Shown piece by piece: positions 60,720 to 62,660 of a DNA stretch of 64,000 nt. The notes under the pieces are model-generated. The model was not told where the DNA came from. It was given only the letters and a program-made list of their open reading frames with translations, and ran no database searches. Every line of letters starts with the position of its first letter. The stretch's first letter is position 1. Position numbers and translations under genes: made by a program. This DNA comes from Gammaproteobacteria bacterium (lineage in GTDB: Bacteria; Pseudomonadota; Gammaproteobacteria; Enterobacterales; Alteromonadaceae): the NCBI GenBank assembly GCA_018825965.1, contig JAHKAA010000050.1, positions 62,001 through 126,000 of the forward strand. The letters run 5' to 3'.

Positions 60720-60923
60720 ATGCTTATTTTAACGCGTCGTGTTGGTGAGACACTGATGATTGGTGATGAAGTCACAGTCACAGTTTTAGGTGTGAAAGGA
60801 AATCAGGTTCGTATCGGTGTGAATGCACCAAAAGAAGTTTCAGTGCACAGAGAAGAGATTTATATGCGTATTCAAGCTGAAAAAGGCACCCCAGGTGGCT
60901 TCAGCGGCGATGACGATCAATAA
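60720..60923 (+). CDS. csrA: Carbon storage regulator CsrA
   Basis: 67 residues. The start [24 protein letters not shown] and the RNA-binding C-terminal strand ([14 protein letters not shown]) are intact. It is a dimeric RNA-binding protein that blocks translation by gripping GGA motifs in hairpin loops. ATG 60720 is chosen, with AAAGGAG before it. It lies about 560 bases before an array of hairpins several of which display GGA loops (see findings). Confidence 0.97.
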
Positions 60924-61081: not shown

Positions 61082-61171
61082 GGAGAAGTGGCCGAGTGGC
61101 TGAAGGCGCACCCCTGCTAAGGGTGTATAGGGGAAACTCTATCGAGGGTTCGAATCCCTCCTTCTCCGCCA
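61082..61171 (+). tRNA. tRNA-Ser (GCT)
   Basis: Acceptor GGAGAAG / CTTCTCC, anticodon GCT at 61116-61118 in loop CTGCTAA, class II long variable arm, encoded CCA (61169-61171). Confidence 0.96.
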
Positions 61172-61188: not shown

Positions 61189-61265
61189 GGATGCATAGCT
61201 CAGCTGGATAGAGTACTCGGCTACGAACCGAGCGGTCGGAGGTTCGAATCCTCCTGCGTCCACCA
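61189..61265 (+). tRNA. tRNA-Arg (ACG), copy 1
   Basis: Acceptor GGATGCA / TGCGTCC, anticodon loop CTACGAA, T arm GGAGGTTCGAATCCTCC, encoded CCA. 77 bases. Identical to copy 2, with a 40-base spacer between. Confidence 0.96.
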
Positions 61266-61305
61266 CTTAATTACAACGACGAAGCGAAAAAAGAAAGTAC
61301 CAGAT

Positions 61306-61382
61306 GGATGCATAGCTCAGCTGGATAGAGTACTCGGCTACGAACCGAGCGGTCGGAGGTTCGAATCCTCCTGCGTCCACCA
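61306..61382 (+). tRNA. tRNA-Arg (ACG), copy 2
   Basis: Identical in sequence to copy 1. Its 3' end and the following terminator are repeated once more at 61552-61605. Confidence 0.96.
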
Positions 61383-61418
61383 CAACTAAACCTGCTAAGT
61401 GCAGGTTTTTTTGTTTTT
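61365..61418 (+). repeat. 54-bp direct repeat, left copy (tRNA-Arg 3' end + terminator)
   Basis: Begins ATCCTCCTGCGTCCACCA (the last 18 bases of tRNA-Arg) and runs through the terminator. An exact second copy is at 61552-61605. Confidence 0.95.
61388..61418 (+). terminator. Terminator of the tRNA cluster
   Basis: AACCTGC / GCAGGTT hairpin, loop TAAGT, then T-rich TTTTTGTTTTT. It is part of the 54-bp direct repeat. Confidence 0.88.
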
Positions 61419-61480
61419 AGAATTCAATAAAATAAAGCTCAGAGTGGACGTGAGGAGGTGAGATCCTCCGTCAGGTTCGA

Positions 61481-61550
61481 CAAAATCGCCGGGAGCGATT
61501 TTGGACGAGCGAAGCTCGGCCCGCAGGGCAAGTGGCAGGACGCCACTTGC
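61481..61550. repeat. Four-hairpin cassette A
   Basis: Long-short-short-long: CAAAATCGC / GCGATTTTG with loop CGGGA (61481-61503); CGAGC / GCTCG with loop GAA (61506-61518); GCCC / GGGC with loop GCA (61519-61529); CAAGTGGC / GCCACTTG with loop AGGAC (61529-61549). It sits exactly between GGTTCGA and ATCCTCCTGCGTCCACCA, i.e. within a tRNA-Arg T loop. Confidence 0.85.
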
Positions 61551-61551
61551 G

Positions 61552-61605
61552 ATCCTCCTGCGTCCACCACAACTAAACCTGCTAAGTGCAGGTTTTTTTG
61601 TTTTT
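61552..61605 (+). repeat. 54-bp direct repeat, right copy
   Basis: Exact copy of 61365-61418: tRNA-Arg 3' end with CCA plus terminator, following cassette A. No upstream tRNA body, so it is not a functional tRNA. Confidence 0.95.
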
Positions 61606-61673
61606 CGCATCCCTGCGAAAAATCCCTTCGGGACCCGCCGTGCGGCGGTCCAAAAACGCTCCAGGCGTTTTTG
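61601..61673. repeat. Four-hairpin cassette B
   Basis: TTTTTCGCA / TGCGAAAAA with loop TCCC (61601-61622); TCCC / GGGA with loop TTC (61623-61633); CCGCC / GGCGG with loop GTGC (61635-61648); CAAAAACGC / GCGTTTTTG with loop TCCAG (61651-61673). The same long-short-short-long order as cassette A; its GGA loops read on the minus strand. Confidence 0.8.
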
Positions 61674-61766
61674 TGTATCTAAAATTCAGTCAAACAGATC
61701 GGCGATGGTGGACACAGGCGGATGAGATCCTCCTATCTCCTCGCAGAGCTCGTCGTGTTCAATCGG

Positions 61767-61836
61767 CAAGACGCCAAACTGTTGGCGTCTTGAGATCCCG
61801 ATTTCACGGTTCGACAAAATCGTCAGGAACGATTTT
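61767..61836. repeat. Further long hairpins of the array
   Basis: CAAGACGCCAA / TTGGCGTCTTG with loop ACTG (61767-61792). After GGTTCGA (61808-61814), AAAATCGT / ACGATTTT with loop CAGGA (61816-61836), similar to the first hairpin of cassette A with compensating changes. Confidence 0.75.
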
Positions 61837-61880
61837 CACTCGTACCATCCCTGATACTCGCCTTCGGCAGCGAAGCTGTG

Positions 61881-61953
61881 CAAAACGACGTCCTGTCGTT
61901 TTGTGGACGCGCTCCGCGCGGTCCCGCAGGGACGTTTGCCAGGACGGCAAACG
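61881..61953. repeat. Four-hairpin cassette C
   Basis: CAAAACGAC / GTCGTTTTG with loop GTCCT (61881-61903); CGCGC / GCGCG with loop TCC (61908-61920); GTCCC / GGGAC with loop GCA (61921-61933); CGTTTGCC / GGCAAACG with loop AGGAC (61933-61953). It is followed by AATCCTCCTGC, a tRNA-Arg 3'-end remnant, as cassette A is. Confidence 0.85.
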
Positions 61954-62012
61954 CAATCCTCCTGCCGCGAAGTCTTAGCTTCTGCAATGGCTCTTTTGCT
62001 CTTCAGATTTGC

Positions 62013-62042
62013 AAACCCAAACCCAAACCCAAACCCAAACCC
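62013..62042. repeat. AAACCC hexamer tandem repeat
   Basis: Five perfect AAACCC units followed by imperfect ones up to 62055, ending next to the CBS-protein stop codon at 62058. Confidence 0.9.
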
Positions 62043-62057
62043 AAACACCAAACCCAA

Positions 62058-62476
62058 CTAAGCCGCTCTTTCCCCGCCATAACAGTCCCCAAGCGTAGCC
62101 TCCAGCGCTCTAACCACTTGACCCCTGTTCAGCACCCCAACCACCACGCCATTCTCCAGCACAGGCAGCTGATGCAAATGCAGGCTGGTAAAGATCACTG
62201 CACTATCCACCACGCTGTCAGACGCCAGCACAGTGACTACCTTCTTACTCATCACCTGAGCTATCGTATTGTGCAGGCTGCAAAAGTAGCTGGCGTGTAA
62301 CATAGCGGCCAAACAATCCTGCTTCGACAAATAACCGACCAGATTATTGTCTTTATTAAACACCGGTGCGCCGGTCAGGTTAAACTGTCGTAGTTGCTGC
62401 ACAGCCTGAACTATCGTATCGTCTTGTTTTGCAGCCGTGGAAATTCACGCTGGAATATATCTTGTACTTTGCTCAT
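62058..62476 (-). pseudogene. CBS-domain protein, frameshifted
   Basis: From ATG 62476 (good AAGGAG before it) the frame reads MSKVQDIFQREFPRLQNKT and stops at a TAG at 62411-62413. The remaining CBS pair (TGAPVFNKDNNLVGYLSKQDCLAAM, HQLPVLENGVVVGVLNRGQVV) continues in another frame to the stop at 62058. The whole span is 419 bases, one short of a multiple of three, so a one-base loss near 62414-62440 explains it. An intact gene would encode about 139 residues, two CBS domains that bind adenosyl nucleotides. A GTG at 62402 could give a shortened protein. A sequencing error cannot be excluded. Confidence 0.75.
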
Positions 62477-62660
62477 GGTTTTCTCCTTTGAAGCTATGGA
62501 AGCTGCATAAGCCCGATAAATGCTTCAATGAAAACGAATTAATAAGCTTGCCAGTATCGTAATTTGCGATTAGAAAACGGGGTAACAAGCAGGGAAGGGG
62601 TCTTGTAGGAATGAAACGTATGTTTTATGTGCAGTTAAATCAGTGCAGACAGATTTTTGC

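Follow-up and report, generated by a model that had tools for sequence, protein, structure and literature searches.

The window analysed here, a stretch of 64,000 nucleotides taken whole, derives from a Rheinheimera-like genome, its aspartokinase being 92–98% identical to nine records of which eight are titled Rheinheimera. The locus of interest comprises a csrA-like gene, a tRNA operon and an array of hairpin cassettes interspersed with tRNA fragments, laid out as follows.

60720–60923: csrA-like gene, called by its sequence, upstream of the tRNA operon
61082–61171, plus strand: tRNA-Ser(GCT), the first gene of the operon, downstream of csrA (ARAGORN, Rfam)
61189–61265 and 61306–61382 (61189–61382 overall), plus strand: two intact, identical tRNA-Arg(ACG) genes (gene calls, repeat comparison)
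61388–61413, plus strand: intrinsic terminator of the tRNA operon, with a second copy at 61575–61600
61444–61480, plus strand: left flank of cassette A, a degenerate inverted tRNA-Arg 3' half followed by GGTTCGA (repeat comparison, fold)
61474–61480, plus strand: GGTTCGA, the 5' part of the first split T arm (letters)
61481–61551, plus strand: cassette A (fold and covariance model)
61481–61503: alpha hairpin of cassette A, 9 bp, loop CGGGA
61506–61518: hp2 of cassette A, loop GAA
61519–61529: hp3 of cassette A, loop GCA
61528–61550: beta hairpin of cassette A, loop AGGAC
61552–61610, plus strand: second tRNA-Arg 3' end (from the T-loop ATCC) with terminator, 97% identical to 61365–61423
61601–61673, minus strand: cassette B, in the opposite orientation and adjoining the terminator T-tract (covariance model, 88 bits; fold)
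61706–61733, plus strand: second inverted tRNA-Arg 3' end, 82% complementary over 28 nt
61734–61807, plus strand: 'gamma' module of two stems, boundaries approximate and placed partly by eye
61808–61814, plus strand: GGTTCGA, the 5' side of the second split T arm (letters)
61815–61955, plus strand: compound insert made up of an alpha hairpin (61815–61837), a 44-bp linker module and cassette C
61881–61954, plus strand: cassette C (covariance model, fold)
61956–61965, plus strand: ATCCTCCTGC, the 3' side of the second split T arm (letters)

The first-pass annotation of this DNA had placed three four-hairpin cassettes in the array, and the letters, the folds and the covariance model bear out all three. 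It had also taken them to be alike: the shared plan holds, and the minus-strand orientation of cassette B was missed. Cassette A is bounded by GGTTCGA and, from 61552, by ATCCTCCTGCGTCCACCA, the right side reading ATCCTCC. These are the flanks first described, with the correction that the fit is not exact, one extra base (G61551) lying at the right end. The right flank belongs to the 59-nt duplicate (97% identical) that comprises the tRNA 3' end and its terminator, and this duplicate begins exactly at ATCC. The last block (61815–61955) lies between the same T-arm flanks, again as first described, and is in addition compound; the first long hairpin of cassette C is common to a head-to-head unit on the minus strand (61842–61903, 29.8 bits). 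On its left, each split T arm is accompanied by the tRNA 3' end in inverted and degenerate form. The copy at 61706–61733 is 82–89% complementary in a self-comparison of the window, and the weaker copy at 61444–61469, which is 73% like 61708–61733, pairs with the right flank of cassette A in the fold. By eye, the left flank of cassette A is better preserved at loci L011 and L091.

Three further features adjoin the cassettes. The gamma module has constant ends, GCAGAGCTCGTCG and TTCAC, which enclose two variable stems and lie between tRNA or 5S fragments; modules of this type were also seen by eye at 5S copies (L003–L005) and at L099, L101 and L102, and the module seems to represent a further family of repeats similar in kind to the cassettes. 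A short tandem repeat (CCCAAA/CAAACC, 62018–62060) adjoins the array and varies in length among species of the genus (by eye). A CBS-domain-like gene (window positions 62400–62480) appears, by eye, to have two extra bases near its start relative to its relatives, possibly a frameshift.

The cassette unit is defined by structure. Terminal alpha (approximately 9 bp, loop CNGGA) and beta (loop NGGA) hairpins with GGA in their loops enclose two short hairpins, hp2 and hp3 (mostly triloop GNA). Folded as single-stranded DNA, cassettes A, B and C each give the order long-short-short-long, with z-scores of -5.7, -6.6 and -4.2; among 200 shuffles of each, 0, 0 and 1, respectively, folded as well. Covariance model scores were 71.3, 88.0 and 43.5 bits, the last figure being that of the whole 61815–61953 block. 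The model (R1) was built from 20 same-genus rows chosen by a hairpin parser, starting from 22 candidates after a 97% filter; some were dropped by hand and near variants from the same listing were added. A scan of the window for hairpin chains by stem length alone gave 25 chains, missed cassette A and was kept out of the statistics.

That the stems vary while their pairing is kept, as the first-pass annotation had proposed, was confirmed both within the genus and outside it. Among 118 distinct copies from other genera, 97.9% of cells are paired (66.2% when shuffled), all 25 of the 25 pairs show change on both sides, and cells changed on both sides outnumber those changed on one side by 818 to 23; the first, same-genus set gave 103 two-sided against five one-sided changes. 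The rows of both sets were picked via hairpins or a hairpin model. This does not apply to 16 distinct inserts from across the genus, gathered solely by their flanks, GGTTCGA and ATCCTCCT, in which hairpins have been exchanged whole. Eleven of these are 66–73 nt and five are 139–141 nt in length, and GGA-loop hairpins are kept in 10 of the 11 short ones, the remaining insert (L101) consisting of hairpins with other loops. The loops, CNGGA in alpha and NGGA in beta, are conserved. With a parser that permitted G-T inside stems, G-T pairs made up 2 of 312 in alpha and 9 of 287 in beta. Since selected RNA structures usually pass through G-U, this scarcity favours pairing kept at the level of DNA, and the counts of two-sided and one-sided changes are as expected in that case.

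Searches of the genome and of its relatives, including those with the covariance model, located the family far beyond the window. By DNA similarity the unit was traced in all 22 genomes of the genus and in 26 of the 40 compared overall. R1 gave 40 matches in the host genome (E<=1), spread over many contigs. Among 98 relatives 59 were positive, namely 22 of 22 in the genus (2–49 matches each), 28 of 37 elsewhere in the family and 9 of 39 in other families of the order; across the class, 103 of 274 genomes were positive at E<=1e-5. The loci analysed from other genera are the top-scoring matches, a choice that may favour T-loop-like subtypes. To gauge the background, the search was run on 71 aspartokinase loci from other gammaproteobacteria, of which 65 carry a tRNA-Ser or tRNA-Arg gene. 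Seven matched at E<0.1 (three strongly, four weakly at 20–25 bits); every match lay no further than about 120 nt from a tRNA-Ser, the remainder of the loci being free of matches. Units are found in both orientations, and they may stand alone, follow one another in tandem or be joined into compounds. BLAST of one cassette against plasmids and of another against E. coli genomes gave no match, which is a weak test as stems vary. No published description of the four-hairpin unit was found, judging on titles and the openings of abstracts in a search that took in few subscription journals.

Several copies have a distinctive context of their own. Six in the host genome (L178, L180, L181, L182, L188 and L190) share, by eye, a larger composite in which a GATACTTTC...GAAAGTATC palindrome is accompanied by a GGCGACC flank; to judge by its letters, this composite is a further recurrent insertion context. 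In another genome (G310), cassettes lie within ORFs of a BREX-like cluster (SNF2 helicase, PglZ, DUF6079 and methylase; L378) and leave the frames open, and a tandem array of 72-bp units on the minus strand (L380:2-3040) is read in frame, at 24 residues per unit, near the presumed start of a nuoG-like gene.

Across genera, the unit is found time and again in the T-loops of spare tRNA 3' copies. The 116 distinct copies from 19 genomes of other genera fall into 25 forward T-loop, 5 reverse T-loop, 2 D-loop, 6 5S-type (three of them doubtful, G070) and 78 other sites, rows shorter than 58 or longer than 82 nt having been dropped and units in T-loop tandem arrays (e.g. L334) having been scored as 'other'. 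The forward arrangement is GTTCGA|unit|NAATCC or a close variant. Eleven of the 19 genomes have T-loop sites, and near most of these sites an intact tRNA was found, for Arg (ACG, CCG), Ser (GGA, TGA), Glu, Val or Phe. At the tRNA-Phe sites the unit is antisense to the tRNA, like cassette B in the window. By eye, T-loop sites extend to still other lineages (L053, L362 and L370, with L367 and L373 beside tRNA-Phe), and at L074 and L048 a D-loop unit sits in a broken 5' copy of tRNA-Ser with the intact gene downstream. Many T-loop copies follow a hairpin with a TGAGA-like loop and a stem that matches the local T arm. The exact pattern of such a hairpin beside an intact, cassette-free T arm was found in none of 118 genomes, and the conserved left flank may belong to the element or to its insertion process.

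Alleles with and without the unit were compared by alignment at the two loci where unit-free alleles have been sequenced. In the host genome, one unit breaks an integron integrase gene between the residues RHSF and ATHLLEAG; the interrupted gene was identified by TIGR02249 (345 bits, cut-off 265) and Pfam Phage_integrase. A 72-bp insertion is present at this site in three genomes (L226, L227 and L228), seven others are cleanly empty (L229–L235), and there is no target duplication of more than 1 nt. The second locus is the terminator of rpmE (L31), which is empty in L236 and L237, carries one 71-bp unit in L214 and compounds in L006, L243, L246 and L247; for the empty alleles, one genome has 98% flank identity over 208 bp. 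Here TTTTTTA is common to the target and to the end of the unit, which leaves the ends ambiguous over 7 nt, and consequently a 7-nt duplication and an insertion by way of the shared A/T tract would look the same. Read from these alleles, the four-hairpin unit alone can evidently be inserted.

An insertion preference can be taken from the flanks, which place A, often GA, ahead of the unit. In one set of 63 distinct copies, A directly precedes alpha in 61 and is the second base past beta in 57; in another of 115, the corresponding shares are 94% and 86%. The two sets overlap, the larger being drawn from loci L213 upwards, with rows below 60 or above 80 nt dropped. Scored against local GC skew, the strand of the unit is positive in 40 of 75 copies classed as 'other', in 21 of the 25 T-loop copies in forward orientation and in 7 of 40 of a second 'other' set that mixes genera and includes orthologues and array copies; no consistent strand bias was found in those three sets.

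The first-pass annotation had suggested structure-selected mobile elements or processed small RNAs. The mobile option gains support from recurrence throughout the genome and the class, stem covariation, unit-free alleles at two loci, and T-loop insertion at other tRNAs elsewhere. The analysis does not bear out the small-RNA option, which is left as a minor possibility: loci differ in how the unit is oriented to tRNA transcription, and G-U is nearly absent. The same annotation had named restriction to this one locus, lack of covariation and lack of any trace of mobility as adverse outcomes; the family is dispersed, its stems covary and it has left filled and empty sites.

A mobile unit of this kind calls attention to what might move it. 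No transposase was seen among the commonest 25 of 148 Pfam families in the neighbourhood of cassettes, 93 of 145 non-redundant neighbouring ORFs having been scanned and the interrupted integrase ORF itself left out of the tally. The alternative that survives best, which we nonetheless regard as unlikely, is that a RAYT or IS200/IS605-like Y1 transposase encoded by the same genomes moves the cassettes as satellites of the REP/REPIN type. The cassettes share the style of REPs (short perfect palindromes, clusters, head-to-head pairs), and the absence of a target duplication at the integrase site fits such an enzyme. In group 3 GTAG REPs the loop is important in recognition, and mutations there hurt more than stem swaps, according to the text available of PMC8266576. 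Y1 genes are present in 19 of the 22 same-genus genomes, some being classic RAYT-like by eye, and in other genera a Y1 match occurs in 10 of 18 cassette-bearing as against 3 of 8 cassette-free genomes. However, of the 68 Y1 matches listed, 60 were examined with up to 1.5 kb of flank (17 of these loci being shorter than 3 kb), and a cassette lay near just one; with 59 of the 60 loci free of cassettes, Y1/RAYT was rejected as a flanking partner. No Y1 match was obtained for eight of the 18 cassette-bearing genomes outside the genus (two of the eight being single-contig) or for three same-genus genomes with 10–13 cassettes, and the GTAG tag is absent from the cassettes. It is possible that a Y1 enzyme acts in trans, or that Y1 was lost after the repeats had spread in the cassette-bearing genomes that lack it. 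Besides these loci, a cassette starts right after the stop codon of a large serine recombinase in two genomes from different families (L382:3764-5254 and L384:2475-3965). They are probably one shared island and look like it, and the recombinase was not adopted as a partner.

Less probable still, and in our judgement improbable, is that the cassettes are decoy RNAs of the CsrB/RsmX kind, transcribed from the tRNA operon beside csrA and titrating CsrA/RsmA with their GGA loops. GGA is indeed present in the alpha and beta loops, and a csrA-like gene lies upstream (60720–60923). Among 99 beta hairpins of other genera, A stands two bases before GGA in 58 and CAGGA[ACT]G, which we take to resemble the CsrA consensus, occurs in 25. 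An rsmX match at 61476–61598 scored 32.5 bits (E=0.004), below the cut-off of 56. Against decoys, cassette B and the units at tRNA-Phe sites are antisense, the matches in the host genome are scattered over many contigs, the first loop holds TCC in 19 of 63 parsed cassettes, and G-U pairs are almost absent. At cut-off, Rfam returned tRNA as the sole family in the window and, over the window and 18 cassette loci together, only tRNA, rRNA, tmRNA and one L31 leader. That nothing moves, tRNA 3' ends and terminators having been duplicated in tandem with the hairpins as intrinsic terminators evolving in place, can draw on the duplicated 3' end and terminator at 61552–61610, on the existence of tandem arrays and on RtT matches below cut-off, but it is scarcely credible given single units in an unrelated gene and after an unrelated terminator, both with unit-free alleles, and given that in the window the tRNA terminators score as terminators and the cassettes do not.

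We consider it probable that each cassette is one copy of a mobile, non-autonomous DNA repeat, some 70–73 bp long, REP-like, recognised by its structure and moved in trans. The repeat would be handled as folded single-stranded DNA. The putative enzyme, acting in trans, would read the loops and the feet of the hairpins and not the stems, and would insert the unit 3' of an A, often where the target itself can form a hairpin. Such targets would include T and D arms, 5S, terminators and other palindromes. Insertions into a redundant tRNA copy would be tolerated because an intact copy remains adjacent, and the broken copy would then erode. The arms would stay Watson-Crick because they are corrected or copied as DNA. 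Tentatively, and as a possibility that we rate below even, we would go further and suggest that this is class-wide mobile DNA in which just the shape and the loop letters are conserved, that its enzyme lies outside Y1/RAYT, and that insertion 3' of GA, with a preference for hairpin loops, makes tRNA T- and D-loops its homing sites beside an intact tRNA.

Short palindromic repeats abound in bacterial genomes, and the available text of PMC3733652, on CGTC repeats, asks how those without a transposase spread. The four-hairpin family exists, covaries and inserts as one unit; on the best reading it is a new REP-like, non-autonomous, structure-recognised mobile repeat. It offers one insertion with exact ends, an allelic series at a second locus, a target that recurs (A, often GA) and a broad range of hosts, which together make the search for the enzyme testable. 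Its use of the tRNA T-loop across genera is unusual. One survey of stem-loop families in bacteria discarded tRNA- and rRNA-related clusters, as described in the part of PMC2267715 available, and this may explain why the family was missed.

Among known repeats, the GTAG REPs and REPINs resemble the cassettes in being short perfect palindromes, present in many copies, mostly extragenic, clustered and paired head-to-head, as outlined in PMC8266576. The cassettes differ in having four hairpins in a fixed order and recurrent tRNA T-loop sites. Their consensus lacks GTAG, with A preceding alpha and GA or AA joining alpha to hp2. GTAG REPs flank their RAYT (Y1) gene, whereas cassettes were seen at one Y1 locus in 60 and also in genomes without Y1. 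A separate GTAG-type repeat (GTAGGGGCGACC...GGTCGCCC) with a short Y1 gene nearby (G021:C1:753943, near G021:C1:753410-753618) was noted by eye in the L236 and L237 flanks, which suggests that a REP/RAYT pair exists side by side with the cassettes. The CGTC REPs, as PMC3733652 describes them in its available text, have stems of 8–9 bp, loops of 4–5 nt, an A/T stem base, head-to-head dimers and no linked transposase, and some lie inside palindromes and in frame in genes. The cassettes are like them in stem and loop size, A/T stem base, head-to-head pairs and the unlinked transposase. On the textual descriptions in the same source, a CGTC REP is a tag plus one hairpin with a CCA tail, whereas a cassette has four hairpins, GGA loops, no constant CGTC tag and a tail other than CCA. 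Read on the reverse strand, CGTC, TGTC or GGTC commonly stands ahead of alpha, as TGTT also can; these letters belong to hp2 (by eye). At L364:1440-1640 a cassette interrupts, by eye, an apparent CGTC-type REP (CGTCATTCCGGCGAAAGCCGGA | ATCCAG).

Terminal hairpins, the lack of a target duplication at the integrase site (the ends at rpmE being ambiguous) and a preferred base before the insertion, as read from the flanks, recall IS200/IS605-type elements and their short derivatives; unlike these, no transposase-bearing version with cassette ends was found, and the cut would be at the hairpin foot. A classical MITE is also different, since alpha and beta differ in sequence and the duplication is at most 1 nt at the integrase site and ambiguous at rpmE. 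The tyrT/rtT locus of E. coli has repeats carrying the tRNA 3' end after a tRNA operon, a likeness which extends to matches of the RtT model here, below cut-off; to our knowledge no four-hairpin cassette occurs there. Finally, decoy RNAs of the CsrB/RsmX type are likewise series of hairpins with GGA loops, whereas the cassettes are dispersed DNA repeats found in both orientations.
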